From contig NZ_JAKZEW010000020.1 in the NCBI RefSeq assembly GCF_022548875.1, positions 1 to 64,000 on the forward strand: a DNA stretch of 64,000 bases, in the 5' to 3' direction. The stretch's first letter is position 1, and each line of letters opens with the position of its first letter. Source of the stretch: Glycomyces sp. L485. GTDB taxonomy: Bacteria; Actinomycetota; Actinomycetes; Mycobacteriales; Micromonosporaceae. The translations under genes were made by a program, and so were the position numbers. The notes below the pieces were generated by a model. The model saw only the letters and a program-made list of their open reading frames with translations. It was not told the DNA's origin and made no database searches. Shown here piece by piece: positions 1-53,985 of this stretch.

Positions 1-260
1 CTCACTACTACCAGCTGATCTGAGCTGGTGCCGACCTGACCAACTGCGAAGCCAAGCCGCAGTTCTCGTTTCATCTGTCGCATCGCAGATCGCCGCTGAT
101 GGACTGCGGCAACTTCAGCGAGAGCCGACACGACGAGTCGACTCAGCCGCCCACGCCATCGAGTCCGTCCAGAAATGCAGAGTTACTGCGAACAGATCGA
201 CAGAGCACCGTTCGCAGTAACCATTCACCTGCCTGTTCGAGCAGGTCACGAGCTGCACGA
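1..260. other. No supported gene; contains inverted repeats
   Basis: No reading frame here shows convincing actinobacterial codon use. Visible structures are a 6-bp hairpin at about 11-28, a perfect 11-bp inverted repeat at 183-220 (listed separately) and a short 5-bp hairpin near 229-246. The stretch lies downstream of the candidate minus-strand gene that ends at 261, so terminator or recombination functions are possible, but nothing decides between them. Confidence 0.4.
183..220. repeat. Perfect 11-bp inverted repeat, 16-bp spacer
   Basis: The arms TTACTGCGAAC (183-193) and GTTCGCAGTAA (210-220) are exact reverse complements separated by 16 bp. The arms are AT-richer than the surroundings. 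This geometry fits an operator for a dimeric regulator or a recombination core site; no T-run follows, so a classical intrinsic terminator is less likely. No function is assigned. Confidence 0.5.
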
Positions 261-24965: not shown

Positions 24966-27452
24966 GTGAGCCTCATCGACTTCCTGCCCGACACCGACCG
25001 ACCCGAACCCGACGACGTCTACGAGGCGTTCACGGCATGGACCGAAGACGCCGGCATCGCCCTCTACGAACACCAAGAAGAGGCCCTGCTGGCGATCTGC
25101 TCGGGCTCCAACGTCATCGCGGGCACCCCCACCGGATCGGGCAAGACGCTCATCGCCGCCGCCGCGCACTTCAACGCACTCGCCCACCAACGCACCTCCT
25201 TCTACACCGCCCCGATCAAAGCCCTGGTCTCAGAGAAGTTCTTCGAACTGTGCGAGCAGTTCGGCACCGACAACGTCGGCATGCTCACCGGCGACGCCGC
25301 CGTCAACCCCGACGCGCCCCTGATCTGCTGCACCGCCGAGATCCTCGCCAACCTCACCCTCCGCGAAGGCGCCGCCCTCGACTGCGACTCGGTCGTCGCC
25401 GACGAGTTCCACTTCTACACCGAACCGGACCGCGGCTGGGCCTGGCAAGTCCCCCTGCTGGAACTGTCCCGCGCACAGTTCACCCTCATGTCCGCCACCC
25501 TCGGCGACACCGCGTTCTTCGAAACCGACCTCACCCGCCGCACCGGACGCGAGACCGTCCTGGTAGCCGGATCGACCCGCCCGGTCCCCCTCGACTACGA
25601 ATACCGCAAAACCCCCCTGCACGAGACCGTCGAGAACCTCGTCAACCACGACCGGGCCCCCGCCTACATCGTCCACTTCACCCAAGCCGCCGCCCTGGAG
25701 ACCGCCCAGGCCCTCGCCAGCCTCAAACTGGTCGACAAAGACGCCAAGACCGCGATCAGCACCGCACTCGGCGGCTTCCGCTTCACCACCAAGTTCGGCG
25801 CCACCCTCTCCAGACTCGTGCGAGCGGGCATCGGCGTCCACCACGCCGGCATGCTCCCCAAATACCGCCGCCTGGTCGAACGCCTCGCACAACAGGGCCT
25901 ACTCAAGATCATCTGCGGCACCGACACCCTCGGCGTCGGCATCAACGTCCCCATCCGCACCGTCGTCTTCACCGGACTGGCCAAATACGACGGCCGCCGC
26001 ACCCGCCGCCTGCGCGCCCGCGAATTCCACCAGATCGCCGGCCGAGCCGGCCGCGCCGGCTTCGACACCGAAGGCTTCGTCGTCTGCCAGGCCCCCGAAC
26101 ACGTCATCGAAAACGAGAAAGCCCTCGCCAAATTCGGCAACGACCCCAAAAAACGCAAGAAGATGGCCAAGAAGAAACCCCCCGAAGGCTTCGTCGGCTG
26201 GACCGAGGAAACCTACTTCAACCTCTCCGAAGCCCAACCCGAACCGCTCACCAGCCGCATGCACATGAGCCACGCGATGCTCATCAACATCCTCGCCCGC
26301 GGCGGCGACGCCTTCAGCCACGTCCGAGACCTCATCGAAGACTCCCACGCCGACCGGCCCGCCCAACTGCGCATGGCCCGCACCGCCCTCACCATCGCCC
26401 GAACCCTCCGCGACGCCGGCATCATCGTCATCGACGCGGAATCGGTGAAACTCACCGTCGACCTGCCCGACCACTTCGCACTCAACCAGCCGCTCGCCCC
26501 GTTCGCGCTGGCCGCCCTCGCCCTGCTCGACCCCGAGGGCGAGGAGTACGCCATGGAGGTCGTCTCGGTCGTCGAGGCCACACTCGAGGGCCCCGGCCAG
26601 ATCCTGGCCGCGCAGCGCAGCAAGGCCAAAGGCGCCGCGATCGAGGCGATGAAAGCCGACGGCGTCGACTACTTCGACCGCATGAACCGCCTCGACGACG
26701 ACCAGATCGACTACCCCAAGCCCCTCGCAGAGCTCCTCGACGAAGCCTTCGACGCCTACAAGACCAGCCACCCGTGGGCCGCGGACTACCAGCTCGAACC
26801 CAAGTCGATCCTCCGCGAGATCTGGGAACAGCACATGAGCTTCGGGGAGTACATCGGCGTCTACGGCCTGCCACGCGCCGAGGGCCTGCTCCTGCGCTAC
26901 CTCTCCAGCGCCTACAAGGCCCTGATCCAGACGCTGCCCGAAGGCGCCGGCGGGCCCGAACTCGACGACCTGACCTCCTGGCTGGGCGAGACGATCCGCC
27001 AGACCGACTCCTCGCTCATCAACGAGTGGGAGCAGTTGACCAACCCCGCCGACCAAGGCGACGACATCGACGTCGGACGCCCGGCCCGGGCCTTCACCGA
27101 CAACGAGCGGGCCTTCGCGATCGCGGTGCGCAACACGGTCTTCCGACACGTCGAGCTCGCCGCCAACGACAAGCCCGCCGCGCTGGCCGCGTTGGAGACC
27201 GGCTGGCCGGAGTCGAAATGGGACCGGGCCTTGGAGGCGTATTTCGACGCCCACGACGACATCGGCACCACCACCAGGGCCCGCAGCGACGACTTCCTCG
27301 ACGTCCGCAAGGAAGGCCGCACCTGGACGGTGCGCCAGACCATCGACGACCCGGCCGGGGACCGCGACTGGGCCATGGTCTTCACCGTCGACCTCGACGC
27401 CAGCGACGAGGCCGGCGCCGTCGTCATGGGCATAGAGGACTTCACCGACTAG
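24966..27452 (+). CDS. DEAD/DEAH-box helicase with DUF3516 (Ski2-like)
   Basis: An 828-residue superfamily 2 helicase. Motif I is GTPTGSGKT, motif II is DEFH, motif III is SATLGD, and motif VI contains HQIAGRAGRAG. The C-terminal about 400 residues form the DUF3516 region common in actinobacteria. It should be an ATP-driven RNA or DNA unwinding enzyme. GTG 24966 is proposed: it sits just ahead of the SLIDFLPD sequence, and upstream codons are antisense/overlap with exonuclease paralogue 2. A second Ski2-like helicase, HelY, is at 47659. Confidence 0.92.
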   Translation: MSLIDFLPDTDRPEPDDVYEAFTAWTEDAGIALYEHQEEALLAICSGSNVIAGTPTGSGKTLIAAAAHFNALAHQRTSFYTAPIKALVSEKFFELCEQFGTDNVGMLTGDAAVNPDAPLICCTAEILANLTLREGAALDCDSVVADEFHFYTEPDRGWAWQVPLLELSRAQFTLMSATLGDTAFFETDLTRRTGRETVLVAGSTRPVPLDYEYRKTPLHETVENLVNHDRAPAYIVHFTQAAALETAQALASLKLVDKDAKTAISTALGGFRFTTKFGATLSRLVRAGIGVHHAGMLPKYRRLVERLAQQGLLKIICGTDTLGVGINVPIRTVVFTGLAKYDGRRTRRLRAREFHQIAGRAGRAGFDTEGFVVCQAPEHVIENEKALAKFGNDPKKRKKMAKKKPPEGFVGWTEETYFNLSEAQPEPLTSRMHMSHAMLINILARGGDAFSHVRDLIEDSHADRPAQLRMARTALTIARTLRDAGIIVIDAESVKLTVDLPDHFALNQPLAPFALAALALLDPEGEEYAMEVVSVVEATLEGPGQILAAQRSKAKGAAIEAMKADGVDYFDRMNRLDDDQIDYPKPLAELLDEAFDAYKTSHPWAADYQLEPKSILREIWEQHMSFGEYIGVYGLPRAEGLLLRYLSSAYKALIQTLPEGAGGPELDDLTSWLGETIRQTDSSLINEWEQLTNPADQGDDIDVGRPARAFTDNERAFAIAVRNTVFRHVELAANDKPAALAALETGWPESKWDRALEAYFDAHDDIGTTTRARSDDFLDVRKEGRTWTVRQTIDDPAGDRDWAMVFTVDLDASDEAGAVVMGIEDFTD

Positions 27453-32669: not shown

Positions 32670-34025
32670 ATGATCGACACCGATATTGGCGTCCGGCCCG
32701 CGACTTCCCCGATCCATCTGCGGGTCCGCGGCGGCGTCAAGCTGTCGGGGTCCATCGACGTCAAGACGTCCAAGAACGCCGGGGTGGCGCTGCTATGCGC
32801 GAGCCTGCTGAACAAGGGCACCACGACACTACGGCGTGTCGCGCGCATCGAGGAGGTCATCCGAATCTTGCGCGTCCTGTCCAGCATGGGTGTGCAATAC
32901 CGGTGGCTCGGCGCCGACGGGGACCTGGAGATCACCCCGCCCGAGCGGCTCGACCTGTCGCGCATCGACGTCGACGCGGCCCGGCGCACTCGGTCGATCA
33001 TCATGTTCCTCGGTCCGCTCCTGCACGACTACACCGAGTTCGAGCTGCCGTTCGCCGGCGGCTGCGATCTGGGCGACCGGACCGTCGAGCCGCACATGGT
33101 CGCGCTGCGCCGATACGGCCTGTCGGTGGAGACTTCGCACGGGTGCTACCACGCCTCGGTCAAGGAAGATGTGGAACCGCCGCGGTCTATTGTGCTGACC
33201 GAACGCGGGGACACCGTCACCGAGAACGCGATCATGGCCGCCGCGCGGTGCCCGGAGTCGACGACGATCCGCAACGCCTCGTGCAACTACATGGTTCAGG
33301 ACCTGTGCTTCTTCCTCGAACGGCTCGGGGTGCGCATCGAGGGGGTCGGGACGACCACGATCACCGTCCACGGCAGGGAGACGATCGACGTCGAGGTCGA
33401 CTACGCCCCCTCGGAGGATCCGATCGAGGCGTGGAGCCTGATCGTGGCGGCGATCGTCACCGAATCGGAGATAACGGTCAACCGGGTGCCGATCGAATTC
33501 GTCGAGATCGAACTGGCGTGCGCAGAGGAGATGGGCCTGCGCTACTCCTGCAGTGAGGAGTATCTGGCCGCGAACGGCCGCACCCGACTGGTCGACCTGA
33601 CCGTCTTCCCTTCGCAGCTGCGCGCGCCGATCGACAAGATCCACCCGATGCCCTTCCCTGGCTTGAACATCGACAATCTGCCGTTCTTCGCGCTCATCGG
33701 CTCCTGCGCAGAGGGGTCGACCATGATCCACGACTGGGTGTACGAGAACCGGGCGATCTACCTGACCGAGCTGAACCGGCTCGGTGCCCGCGTGCGACTC
33801 CTCGACCCGCATCGAATCTATGTGGATGGACCGGTGCGGTGGTCCGGCGCCGAGGTCGTTTGCCCGCCGGCCCTGCGCCCCGCGGTGGTGCTGCTGCTGG
33901 CGATGCTGCGTGCCAAAGGTACCTCCGTGCTCCGACACGTCAACGTGATCCACCGCGGATATGAGCAGCTCGCCGAGCGCCTCAAGAAACTCGGCGCCGA
34001 AATCGAGGTCTTCTGGGGCGACTGA
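32670..34025 (+). CDS. MurA-like UDP-N-acetylglucosamine 1-carboxyvinyltransferase paralogue
   Basis: A 451-residue EPSP-synthase-fold protein. The active-site Lys/Asn are in VKTSKNAG (Lys35-Asn36). The loop cysteine is Cys132 in FAGGCDLGDRTVEPH, equivalent to Cys115 of Escherichia coli MurA. Length is slightly longer than canonical (about 420). Sequence outside the motifs diverges (NASCNYMVQDLCFFLERLG, DKIHPMPFPGLNIDNLPF), so this may be a specialised MurA2 rather than the main peptidoglycan enzyme. A hypothetical membrane protein follows. Confidence 0.85.
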   Translation: MIDTDIGVRPATSPIHLRVRGGVKLSGSIDVKTSKNAGVALLCASLLNKGTTTLRRVARIEEVIRILRVLSSMGVQYRWLGADGDLEITPPERLDLSRIDVDAARRTRSIIMFLGPLLHDYTEFELPFAGGCDLGDRTVEPHMVALRRYGLSVETSHGCYHASVKEDVEPPRSIVLTERGDTVTENAIMAAARCPESTTIRNASCNYMVQDLCFFLERLGVRIEGVGTTTITVHGRETIDVEVDYAPSEDPIEAWSLIVAAIVTESEITVNRVPIEFVEIELACAEEMGLRYSCSEEYLAANGRTRLVDLTVFPSQLRAPIDKIHPMPFPGLNIDNLPFFALIGSCAEGSTMIHDWVYENRAIYLTELNRLGARVRLLDPHRIYVDGPVRWSGAEVVCPPALRPAVVLLLAMLRAKGTSVLRHVNVIHRGYEQLAERLKKLGAEIEVFWGD

Positions 34026-34035
34026 CGCGCCTCCG

Positions 34036-34617
34036 ATGTGTGACACTGCTGCAATGGATATCGCGCCCAACGTTCCCCCGCACGCCTATGCGCTGCTGAG
34101 TCTCATGCGCAGCCATCTGCGTCACCTGGAGAAGGTCGACGCCGAGCCGCTGGCCACGCCGCAGTGGACGGCCGCGGCGGAGTCGGCGCGGACCGTCGCG
34201 GGCATAAAGTACCCCGGCGAGGCGGTCACGGCCCAGGACATCCCCATGATCGTCGGCACCGGAGCCCCCCAGCGCCGCCGCCACCTGTACTGCTCGATGC
34301 CCTGCACGCCGGCCGTCGCCGCCAAGGCCGACGAGTGCGAGGTCGCGATCTTCACCTACAACCGGCGCGGGCGCATCCAGCCTGCCAACCGGACGGCCGA
34401 TGAGCGCCAGTCTCGCGCCTGGTACCCGCCGGCGAAGGCCATCGCCCCGATGCGCCTCATCGGCAATGAAGCGTGGGAGCCGGTCGTGGAGGCGACCGGT
34501 GAGTCCGGCCGCCCGGGAGTCTTCGAGGCCGCCTCGGGCTGGCTCGTCCTGCTCCTCCTCATCGCCTTCCTCGGCACCTCGGCCTACTTCGCACTCCGCT
34601 TCACAGGGATCATCTGA
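34036..34617 (+). CDS. Hypothetical protein with C-terminal membrane anchor
   Basis: A 193-residue protein (or 187 if ATG 34054 is used). It begins 10 bp after the MurA-like stop. One transmembrane helix near the end (about 167-188: WLVLLLLIAFLGTSAYFAL) makes it tail-anchored; the rest is soluble with several Trp/Arg-rich turns. No family is recognised. Placement suggests co-expression with the MurA paralogue. It is followed by a strong terminator at 34705. Confidence 0.5.
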   Translation: MCDTAAMDIAPNVPPHAYALLSLMRSHLRHLEKVDAEPLATPQWTAAAESARTVAGIKYPGEAVTAQDIPMIVGTGAPQRRRHLYCSMPCTPAVAAKADECEVAIFTYNRRGRIQPANRTADERQSRAWYPPAKAIAPMRLIGNEAWEPVVEATGESGRPGVFEAASGWLVLLLLIAFLGTSAYFALRFTGII

Positions 34618-34782: not shown

Positions 34783-34886
34783 AGGTTTCTCTTGGTGAGC
34801 GCGTGGGCGCAGCCCACGCTCCTTTCTTCGGCGGACGGTGACCTCGGGATGCAGAGAGGTACTCTACCTCGGAGTCGATATATATT
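34783..34886 (+). repeat. Direct repeat copy A (~104 bp)
   Basis: From 34791 to 34886 this is identical to 36290-36385 apart from one C/T difference in a hairpin loop; the preceding AGGTTT also matches after a 1-nt gap. Inside are a hairpin with GCGTGGGC/GCCCACGC arms (34801-34819) followed by TCCTTTCTT, a GAGGTA-CTC-TACCTC dyad and a terminal GTCGATATATATT box. Confidence 0.9.
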
Positions 34887-35143
34887 TCATTATGAATGCC
34901 AAGGCGTTACCGCATTTTCGTGCCGGCATCTCCGAAGATCTCTCTGAGAATAACCATTCGGCCAGTTCGGACGGACATTAGACCTTGCCCCTCCCCTCGA
35001 ACCATCGTATGATCCCCACCATACGTACTCGCTTGAGCCGCGCATCCCCAGCGAGACGCCAAGACGCGACCCAGCGCTAGCAGCGTATTGCCCGATCCAT
35101 TAGCCCCCGTCTTCGCACACGGAATCTCGCAAAGGAGCGACCC

Positions 35144-36238
35144 ATGGAATTCAATGAACGGATTGCCGCGCTCATCACAAAAGTCCGGAATCAGCGCGAC
35201 ATGGTCCAGACCGAAGAGGGCGCCAAGAATGCCTTCATCATGCCGTTCATCTCCACCATTCTGGGATACGACGTCTTCGACCCGCTCGAGGTGGTCCCTG
35301 AATTCACCGCAGACGTCGGCTTGAAAAAGGGCGAGAAAGTCGATTATGCGATCCTTCACGGCGGTGAAGTGCAGATCCTCATCGAATGCAAGCGGTCGAA
35401 CGGGCAACTGACGGCCGAGCACGCCTCCCAACTGTTCCGGTACTTCGCCGTGACCAACGCCCGCATTGCTATTCTCACCAACGGTGAGGTCTACCAGTTC
35501 TACACCGATCTCGACGCACCTAATCGCATGGACGCCAAGCCGTTCCTCGTACTCGACTTCCATGACATCGACGAGACCCTCCTTCCGGAGCTGCGCAAGC
35601 TGACCAAGGAGTCATTCGACCTCGAATCGATCATCAGCGCCGCCGAGGAGTTGAAGTACATCGGCCAGATCAAGCGAACGCTCGCAGCTCAATTCAAAGA
35701 GCCCGAATCCGAATGGGTCAAGTTTCTCACGACGCGCGTCTACGACGGTTCCTTCACGCAACGGGTGCGCGAACAGTTCACTCCACTCGTCGCGAAGGCG
35801 GCTACCCAATTCCTCAACGACCAGGTCAACAGCCGGCTCCAAACAGCGCTCGGATCAGGATTCGCCGCTCCGAGCGAGCCCGAGACAGCCGAGTCGTCCG
35901 CCGACGAGCCGAGCGACGATGAAGGCACCGATCGCGAATCCGACGTCGAGACCACCCTCGAAGAGATCGGCGGCTACCAGATCGTCAAGGCCATCGCCTG
36001 CAGCGAGGTCAAGCCCCACCGGATCATCCACCGAGATGCCAAGAGCTACTTCGCGATCCTGCTCGACGACAACAATCGCAAACCTATAGCCAGGCTCCAC
36101 TTCAACGGCAAGAGCAAGAAGTACCTCGGCACCTTCGACGCCGACAAGAACGAGCGTCGCCATCTGATCGACTCGCTCGACGACATCTACCTGTATTCGG
36201 ATTCCATCCGAGAGGCTGTACAGCGATACAAGGACTGA
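35144..36238 (+). CDS. Orphan HsdR-N-type nuclease (PD-(D/E)xK)
   Basis: A 364-residue protein resembling the N-terminal nuclease domain of type I restriction HsdR (HSDR_N_2). Active-site residues are Asp67 (KVDYAI) and Glu81-x-Lys83 (IECKRS). A Ser/Glu/Asp-rich linker (about 240-270) joins a C-terminal domain (about 275-364) with FAILLDDNNRKPIARLHFNGKSKKYLGTF, found in some other stand-alone proteins of this type. No helicase, methyltransferase or specificity gene is nearby. Codon use has more A/T than neighbours and the gene is flanked by ~100-bp direct repeats, so it was probably acquired. It could act in phage defence, but this is inference. Confidence 0.8.
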   Translation: MEFNERIAALITKVRNQRDMVQTEEGAKNAFIMPFISTILGYDVFDPLEVVPEFTADVGLKKGEKVDYAILHGGEVQILIECKRSNGQLTAEHASQLFRYFAVTNARIAILTNGEVYQFYTDLDAPNRMDAKPFLVLDFHDIDETLLPELRKLTKESFDLESIISAAEELKYIGQIKRTLAAQFKEPESEWVKFLTTRVYDGSFTQRVREQFTPLVAKAATQFLNDQVNSRLQTALGSGFAAPSEPETAESSADEPSDDEGTDRESDVETTLEEIGGYQIVKAIACSEVKPHRIIHRDAKSYFAILLDDNNRKPIARLHFNGKSKKYLGTFDADKNERRHLIDSLDDIYLYSDSIREAVQRYKD

Positions 36239-36282
36239 GCGTGCGCCACCGTACTGGTCACGCGACCTCTTGCGGGACGGGC

Positions 36283-36385
36283 AGGTTTTCTTGGTGAGCG
36301 CGTGGGCGTAGCCCACGCTCCTTTCTTCGGCGGACGGTGACCTCGGGATGCAGAGAGGTACTCTACCTCGGAGTCGATATATATT
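36283..36385 (+). repeat. Direct repeat copy B (~103 bp)
   Basis: Near-identical to copy A at 34783-34886: the same hairpin (loop GTA instead of GCA), dyad and GTCGATATATATT box. Copy B lies 45 bp after the nuclease stop and 89 bp before the padR start, so it is part of the padR upstream region and probably the native copy. Confidence 0.9.
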
Positions 36386-36437
36386 CTATGTAGAGTGATG
36401 AGGTGTGGTTGGGCGCCACGGCGGTGCTTGTCTTGGT

Positions 36438-36450
36438 GTCGATATATATT
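36438..36450 (+). promoter_or_regulatory. GTCGATATATATT box at the padR promoter
   Basis: Third copy of the box found at the ends of both direct repeats. It is 23 bp before the padR ATG and could overlap the -10 element. Its AT-rich core in GC-rich DNA and its position suggest a PadR autoregulatory site. Confidence 0.55.
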
Positions 36451-36473: not shown

Positions 36474-37037
36474 ATGCTGAAGATGGCCATACTCGGATTC
36501 CTGCGGGACTTCCCGCTCCACGGCTACGACCTCAAGAACCGGGTCGCGGCGCTCGCCGGCCACGTCCGGCCCATCGCCGACGGCACCCTCTACCCCACCA
36601 TCAAGAAGCTCGAAGACGCCGGCTGCCTCACCCGCCGGACCGCCCCCGGATCGGTCGCCGCGCCGCGCCACATGCTCGAGATCACCCAGGACGGCACCGA
36701 CCAGCTGCGCCGGTGGCTGCGCAACCCCGAACCGGTCTTCATCACCGACGACAACAAGTGGTATGTCCTGCTCGCCTTCCTCCACCACCTGGAGAACGCG
36801 CGCGAGCAGTCCATCGTGCTCGCCCGCAGGCGCGAATTCCTCGACCAGCCCACGCAGTTGTTCTTCGACGAGCACGGCAGACCCATCCCCGCCGACCAGC
36901 TCGACTCGCCGTTCCGCAAGGGGCTCATGCAGATCCACCGCTCGTTCAACCTTGGCGAGATCGACTGGCTCGACAGCCAGATCGCCGAGCTCGACCGCCG
37001 CGCCGGCTACACCGTCCGCCAGCGCACCGGCGACTAG
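36474..37037 (+). CDS. PadR family transcriptional regulator
   Basis: A 187-residue regulator. The winged helix reads MLKMAILGFLRDFPLHGYDLKNRVAALAGH, then DGTLYPTIKKLEDAGCLTRR. The C-terminal Vir-type helical domain extends to about 187 and begins after ITQDGTDQLRRWLRNPEP. GATATATATT-type boxes sit in front of it and in both direct repeats around the neighbouring nuclease, so it may regulate itself and perhaps the acquired gene. Its stop overlaps that of the convergent Hsp70-like gene. Confidence 0.9.
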   Translation: MLKMAILGFLRDFPLHGYDLKNRVAALAGHVRPIADGTLYPTIKKLEDAGCLTRRTAPGSVAAPRHMLEITQDGTDQLRRWLRNPEPVFITDDNKWYVLLAFLHHLENAREQSIVLARRREFLDQPTQLFFDEHGRPIPADQLDSPFRKGLMQIHRSFNLGEIDWLDSQIAELDRRAGYTVRQRTGD

Positions 37038-53008: not shown

Positions 53009-53985
53009 TGCGACAGTCTAGCGGCGTCCGCGTACCGGGCGAGGGCGGCCCTCGCGGAGTCCTTGACCGATTCGCGCAGCTCGGCAGGGGCGATGACCTG
53101 TGCCTCCCCGCCGAGACCGAGGACGAGGCGGCGAGCCCAGTCGAGGTCGCGGACGCGCATGGTGACCCTGCGGTGGCCGTCGGCCTCGCCGACGACCTCC
53201 TCGCACGGGTAGGAGTCGGTGATCGACTTCGCGCCCGGACCGACGCGCAGTTCGATGCGAGGCAGCTCGGCCTCCAGGAACGCGGTCGGGGCCGGTTCGG
53301 CGCTGTCCGCGGCTCCCGCAGGTCCGCGGCTCGCCAGTCCGGCCGAGGACGCGGCGGGCTCGTCGATGACGGTGCAGGCGTCGATGCGGTCGAGGCGGAA
53401 CTGGCGGACCTCTTCGGCGGAGCGGCACCAGGCCCGCAGGTAGGCGTGGCCTTCTGCGGCGACGACCTCGATGGGGTCGATGATGCGTTCGGAGGTGGTG
53501 TCGCGGCTGGCCGAGTAGTAGGTGATGCGGGCGGCATTCCCGGATTCGACCAGGGCCGCGTAGCGTTCGACGTCGGCCTCGGCGACGGTGTCACGGACGG
53601 GCACCTCGGTGGCCTCGACGCCTGCGGCCGCGGCGAGCTTGTCGAGTGCCGAGGCGATCGCGGCCCGGTCGCCGACGCCGGGCGTGTCCGCCAGGACCCG
53701 CAGTGCCACCGACAGGGCGAGGGCCTCGTGGCCGGCGAGGCGCACGGGCCTGTCCATGCCGGCCGCGAAGATGACGCGGACGGTGTCGGCGTCGAAGGCG
53801 ATGTCGATGAGGTCGCCGGGGCCGTAGCCGGGCAGGCCGCACATCCACAGCAGCGTCAGGTCGGCCCGGATCTGGACGACCGGGACGCCGAAGTCGTCGG
53901 CGAGTTCGCTGATCGGCACCCCTTCGGGGCGGGCGACCAGGTACGGGACCAGGTTCAGCAGCCTGGCGACCCTCGTGTTGGTCAT
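53005..53985 (-). CDS. pafC: WYL-domain transcriptional regulator PafC
   Basis: A 326-residue regulator. The N-terminal HTH (NLVPYLVARPEGVPISELADDFGVPVVQI) leads to a WYL domain (about 140-215: ARITYYSASRD, then HAYLRAWCRSAEEVRQFRLDRI) and a WCX C-terminal part. With PafB it forms the heterodimer that controls the SOS-independent DNA-damage response in mycobacteria. The 4-nt overlap with pafB enforces coupled synthesis. Long open frame upstream is antisense. Confidence 0.93.
   Translation of the reverse strand: MTNTRVARLLNLVPYLVARPEGVPISELADDFGVPVVQIRADLTLLWMCGLPGYGPGDLIDIAFDADTVRVIFAAGMDRPVRLAGHEALALSVALRVLADTPGVGDRAAIASALDKLAAAAGVEATEVPVRDTVAEADVERYAALVESGNAARITYYSASRDTTSERIIDPIEVVAAEGHAYLRAWCRSAEEVRQFRLDRIDACTVIDEPAASSAGLASRGPAGAADSAEPAPTAFLEAELPRIELRVGPGAKSITDSYPCEEVVGEADGHRRVTMRVRDLDWARRLVLGLGGEAQVIAPAELRESVKDSARAALARYADAARLSQ

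Follow-up and report, generated by a model that had tools for sequence, protein, structure and literature searches.

Replication fork traps, in which a terminator protein acts at ter sites, are represented by Tus in Escherichia coli and its relatives and by RTP in Bacillus subtilis. The accessible text of a 2019 survey counts two unrelated fork trap systems described so far, distributed over four clades, and presents ter sites as non-palindromic sequences that point toward dif (PMC6549158). According to the available portion of a further paper, the promoters of tus and rtp each contain a ter site through which the gene is autoregulated (PMC10331603). A third source, in the part consulted, describes PadR proteins and RTP as highly similar in topology and dimer organisation and states that PadR regulators commonly autoregulate (PMC3506622).

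The locus discussed here lies in a stretch of 64,000 nucleotides of Glycomyces sp. L485 DNA, analysed as a whole and referred to as the window. A nuclease gene is enclosed by two direct repeats, the second of which is the leader of a padR gene. With a probability of about 0.6, both repeats are instances of a Ter-like element that belongs to a replication fork trap in which PadR is the candidate terminator protein. The features of the region are the following:

32670..34025, + strand: murA-like gene, syntenic marker
34054..34617, + strand: tm187, a reading frame of 187 aa with no Pfam or NCBIfam match
34790..34886, + strand: copy A of the repeat, with hairpin, spacer, dyad and Ter-like core
34801..34819, + strand: terminator-like hairpin of copy A, GC stem with pyrimidine tail
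34856..34870, + strand: dyad GAGGTACTCTACCTC of copy A, GAGGT-N5-ACCTC
34867..34886, + strand: Ter-like core A, CCTCGGAGTCGATATATATT, 1 mismatch to the core pattern CCTCGNNGYCGATATATMTC
34985..35013, + strand: promoter-like sequence of the nuclease gene, TTGCCC-17-TATGAT, from an 8-species comparison (a single scan is at chance level)
35144..36238, + strand: solo HsdR-N nuclease of the PD-(D/E)XK type, 364 aa (PF04313, PHROG 4225)
36289..36385, + strand: copy B of the repeat, with the same parts (hairpin, spacer, dyad and Ter-like core), forming the padR leader
36300..36318, + strand: terminator-like hairpin of copy B, GC stem with pyrimidine tail
36355..36369, + strand: dyad GAGGTACTCTACCTC of copy B, GAGGT-N5-ACCTC
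36366..36385, + strand: Ter-like core B, CCTCGGAGTCGATATATATT, 1 mismatch to the core pattern CCTCGNNGYCGATATATMTC
36431..36450, + strand: degenerate third core TCTTGGTGTCGATATATATT beside the padR start, read by eye
36474..37037, + strand: padR, winged-helix protein and candidate terminator protein (PF03551)

The initial annotation had described two direct repeats of about 100 bp with a single difference around an HsdR-N-type nuclease, each with a hairpin followed by a pyrimidine run, the dyad GAGGTACTCTACCTC and a terminal box, GTCGATATATATT, with copy B as the padR upstream region. This description holds in all these respects, the box being contained in each copy, and the length is corrected from 96 to 97 nt: the repeats at 34790-34886 and 36289-36385 are offset by 1499 and differ solely at position 34810, a C/T mismatch in the hairpin loop. 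The lower-GC stretch of about 250 bp that had been noted between the copies is also real, since the 257 bp beside the nuclease have a GC content of 57.6% and the nuclease gene one of 57.9%, against 68.8% for the window. In the 4.42-Mb draft genome, a search with a 104-nt repeat matched solely these two places at E <= 0.001. The sequence GTCGATATATAT occurs three times in the window against 0.01 expected, and its third occurrence, at 36438-36449, is not embedded in a full repeat. Judged by identity, the two window copies stem from a duplication that is recent or has undergone conversion: they are 99% alike and only 71-80% alike to the repeats of other species.

The core of the element is a non-palindromic sequence of 20 bp, often accompanied by a dyad on its left and sometimes by a GC hairpin. 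Allowing up to 2 mismatches, the pattern CCTCGNNGYCGATATATMTC gave 140 matches in 22 of 22 Glycomyces genomes, with 3-10 in each, counts that are not an independent test because the pattern was drawn from these same genomes; the independent tests are the reversed pattern, which had no match in any of the 22, and the genera outside Glycomyces. A covariance model built from 13 copies found 1-5 elements per genome in the 22 genomes at E <= 0.01, four of them in the window genome. The core was matched in 96 of 300 genomes of the wider family. Sets of at least four matches were confined to Glycomyces, all five genomes of group g5, G033, G034 and G316; the other genomes had up to 3, and the reversed control sometimes had 1 or 2. 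The left dyad partner is present at 51 of 72 distinct sites, compared with a mean of 6.5 and a maximum of 17 for shuffled flanks. A perfect GC hairpin stands within 120 nt to the left of the core at 26 of 80 sites, 22 of them at a distance of 40-59 nt, and on the right flank at 9 of 80.

As both repeat hairpins score as terminator-like, and the window region holds 7 such sites where 1.6 are expected, the repeats could be plain intrinsic terminators duplicated by chance. This explanation is highly improbable: the dyad and the core are conserved, also at the many sites that have no perfect hairpin on the left. Ordinary dispersed terminators were rejected as well, the hairpin pattern recurring elsewhere in the genome once, at 3 mismatches. 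A structured RNA was another discarded candidate, as the 104-nt repeat folds as free RNA no better than its shuffles (z -0.48). The hairpin pairs do covary among 13 related sequences, with 4 pairs changed on both sides and 93.1% of cells paired, and none of 500 shuffles reached such covariation values.

The core is also found within genes. It lies inside hrpB in G000, G008 and G011 (HrpB was named by match for G000), where it requires the codon ATA. This codon is rare, the 38 coding-like frames of the window using it for 21 of their 619 Ile codons. The core also overlaps the 3' end of a DUF2264 gene that adjoins a sigma-factor gene. The sites are thus not confined to promoters.

The sites lie around the terminus in Glycomyces and three related genera, with one orientation on each side. 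Among the matches listed, the order '-...-+...+' was observed in 17 of the 18 two-orientation contigs counted, that is, in 12 of 13 from Glycomyces and in all five from other genera (G066, G034, G033, G025 and G161), so that several short non-palindromic sites form two groups of opposite orientation around the terminus. The exception is contig G016:C4, where the order is broken by a site with 2 mismatches. Contigs with a single orientation and matches with 3 mismatches were left out of this count, and so was G316, from another genus, because its four matches (order +++-) are copies of one different sequence; its inclusion gives 17 of 19. One site, G014:C6:342785, was added from the covariance search and not from the core pattern. 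Of the matches with 3 mismatches, 10 of the 14 within 400 kb of the switch agree with the polarity, and 18 of the 32 elsewhere do so.

The chromosomes of G066 (6,841,557 bp) and G034 (3,937,850 bp) are single contigs with dnaA as their first gene. With up to 2 mismatches, the 7 sites of G066 occupy 38.5-50.5% of the chromosome and the 6 sites of G034 occupy 44.6-50.9%. An origin in place of a terminus was rejected, as dnaA is half a chromosome away in both. In G014 the cumulative GC skew reaches its minimum after the '-' site at 342,785 and before the '+' site at 424,133. In the 400 kb around this minimum neither a DnaA nor an RpmH motif was seen, and a single GyrB-motif match was judged spurious. 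The GC skew of G066 has no clear switch. A dif-like 28-mer was located in three genomes and lies inside the switch gap in two of them, at 3,373,717 in G066 and at 1,534,053 in G161. In the third, G025, it is found at 26,364, which leaves one '-' site with 2 mismatches, at 53,030, on its wrong side. No dif-like site turned up in stretches of G014, G010, G008, G033 and G034.

The same polarity and position around dif-like sites would be expected of polar terminus markers for segregation or dimer resolution, which would guide a translocase toward dif and leave forks unimpeded. This proposal is considered quite improbable, although less so than that of plain terminators. FtsK guidance sequences are far more numerous than the 3-10 sites per genome counted here. 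In addition, a site before the gene of its own candidate protein reproduces the arrangement of tus and rtp, as given in the portion of the source cited above (PMC10331603).

That candidate protein is the product of padR. The window PadR matches PF03551 alone in Pfam at E <= 0.001 (E 3.8e-13), and its structural model, with a mean pLDDT of 86.7, has a long C-terminal helix, in agreement with a winged-helix protein of the PadR type. The genus search covered 22 Glycomyces genomes and found a close padR in 21, and the repeat precedes it in all 21, which places a site in the promoter region of the candidate terminator gene throughout. Outside the genus, orthologs of 63-72% identity are situated among the sites in G033, G034, G066, G025, G161 and G174. 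The upstream site is clear in G033 and G034 and degraded to a box in G025, G161 and G174, while the upstream gap of padR in G066 has no box, so that a clear or degraded box precedes padR in 5 of these 6 genomes. In the examined part of G085, padR was not found.

It could be argued that the core is an ordinary PadR operator, serving the repression of padR and a few other genes, and that inversions spread inherited copies of it, which gave rise to the clustering at the terminus. The constant presence of the element in the padR leader of Glycomyces, the common autoregulation of PadR regulators mentioned in the part of the source consulted (PMC3506622) and an inversion that did occur between two elements in G011 agree with this explanation. 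A regulon, however, does not predict the switch of orientation at the terminus across four genera, found in all but one of the contigs counted among the matches listed, and sites also lie inside hrpB and at the 3' end of the DUF2264 gene; this explanation is regarded as unlikely. The terminal sequence that was called a regulator box at the outset belongs to a recurrent site whose polarity around the replication terminus is fixed.

The common gene order of the locus in Glycomyces is lysR-murA-tm187-[nuclease]-repeat-padR, with the exceptions of G021, where tm187 was not found, and G011, where padR is apart from the rest. G011 has undergone an inversion of ~110 kb with both ends at Ter-like elements, its ends now reading nuclease-element-DUF2264 and padR-element-sigma factor. 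Two same-facing cores stand before padR in G034 and in G004, 293 bp and 103 bp apart, respectively. In G017 a full-length element (G017:C23:186988) is located ~106 kb from padR, in the opposite orientation and with other flanking genes. G006 has no nuclease and carries a different reading frame of ~125 aa, which has no Pfam match, between two Ter-like elements before padR.

The nuclease contains the HSDR_N domain (Pfam PF04313, E 9.9e-13), the other parts of HsdR being absent, and matches PHROG 4225 over its length (E 4.5e-124). Its family is widespread and often occurs on viral contigs: among the matches listed, relatives make up at least 579 of 596 stretches in genome contigs, and they are further represented by 423 of 429 stretches in viral contigs and by 18 of 50,697 phage records. 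In Corynebacterium phage Juicebox the gene for a relative has the immunity repressor on one side and a peptidase gene on the other, and the integrase gene is near. The nuclease on a contig labelled Glycomyces fuscus groups with Streptomonospora, which points to a wrong label or contig, or to gene transfer. A defence system was set aside, given that PADLOC returned a weak type IIG match alone (E 2e-4), and no solved structure matched the nuclease at E <= 10.

The initial annotation proposed that the nuclease entered as a cassette, together with the duplicated padR control region or by recombination at it. A part of this model stands. An uninterrupted single-copy repeat without the nuclease exists in 13 of the 21 Glycomyces genomes that hold the locus, which, with the broad and partly viral distribution of the family, is in keeping with an acquired gene; the low GC content of the insert, the near identity of the two window copies compared with those of other species and the different reading frame between two elements in G006 also speak for the model. 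The repeat pair, on the other hand, is not the general route of arrival. Eight of the 22 genomes carry the nuclease, every time at the padR locus, and of the seven other species that have it at the same place six are without the upstream repeat; repeats at both ends, as in a mobile cassette, are restricted to the window and G021, where the upstream copy is diverged (E 7.5e-9). Moreover, the nuclease tree, which mirrors the species tree for G015/G011 and for G014/G005/G007, follows it in one clade in a way that argues against entry by this route. The window nuclease, which may be inherited or regained, is unplaced in the protein tree and is grouped with this clade by the DNA tree (93/95). To account for which genomes have the gene, the species trees require 5 or 6 changes. 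Att sites and site-specific integration were discarded, given that the insert has no integrase and that most carriers are devoid of the upstream repeat.

The further suggestion that the nuclease is served by the duplicated padR control region found no sign in its favor. All eight nuclease genes are preceded by a promoter-like sequence of their own, TTG[CT][CT]n-16..18-TAnnnT (a weak match in G021), and none of 1000 shuffles reached eight of eight, although a scan of the window region alone is at chance (1 found, 0.7 expected). This also weighs against the cassette model, which as a whole is doubtful. Deletion of the nuclease by recombination between the copies is possible, and no instance of it was observed. 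The position of the nuclease at the terminus is most likely incidental.

The fork trap reading, in which the repeats are Ter-like elements, can be formulated as follows. PadR, encoded inside the site region, would bind the core and turn it into a polar barrier. Forks coming from the origin would meet the GATATATATC end first and pass, and those leaving the terminus would meet the hairpin, the dyad and the CCTCG end first and be stopped. The hairpin, located on the blocking side, may shield the site by keeping transcription from sweeping PadR off, and the element before padR would also autoregulate this gene. In the window the element is present in duplicate, and the nuclease, whose usual place is the terminus side of the padR element, sits with its own promoter-like sequence between two same-facing copies. 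By the logic of a trap the terminus would be to the left in the window, and a leaving fork would encounter first copy A, then the nuclease and copy B, and finally the degraded third core and padR. Since doubled elements before padR are also found in G004 and G034, the duplication may strengthen the barrier.

Taken as a whole, the chances are a little better than even that Glycomyces and three related genera possess a fork trap of independent origin, the third of its kind, which recruited a PadR-family repressor as terminator protein and has ~3-10 polar Ter sites on either side of dif. The window would then show the Ter element in duplicate at the gene of the terminator protein, the nuclease having been caught between its two copies. 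No report of a PadR-based fork trap in Actinobacteria was found in the literature searched, mostly papers outside subscription. If true, such a trap would be the third system and would support the repeated evolution of fork traps, and it would connect RTP with a common family of repressors that has the same dimer fold, according to the part of the source consulted (PMC3506622). The reading is directly testable, as it involves one protein and a 20-bp site.

Compared with RTP/ter of Bacillus subtilis, the system proposed here has a similar dimeric winged-helix candidate protein, a site before the protein's own gene, and non-palindromic sites with two adjacent dyads that are oppositely oriented around the terminus. 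It differs in that the protein is a PadR (PF03551) and not an RTP (PF02334), the site sequence is unrelated, the family is actinobacterial, the sites are more widely spaced and the arrest is predicted. With Tus/ter of Escherichia coli and relatives it shares several polar sites of ~20 bp that are distributed across 70-940 kb of the terminus region, including sites inside genes and one in the promoter of the gene for the protein, here the candidate. Instead of the Tus family (PF05472), the candidate is a winged-helix PadR, the core sequence is unrelated, and arrest is again a prediction. The nuclease resembles the solo HsdR-N endonucleases of PHROG 4225 in its full-length match, but it is chromosomal and adjoins a Ter-like element. 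Finally, PadR-family autoregulators such as bcPadR1, LmrR and AphA resemble the candidate in their family and in having a box in their own promoter, whereas here the box recurs with a polarity linked to the terminus and also inside coding sequence.
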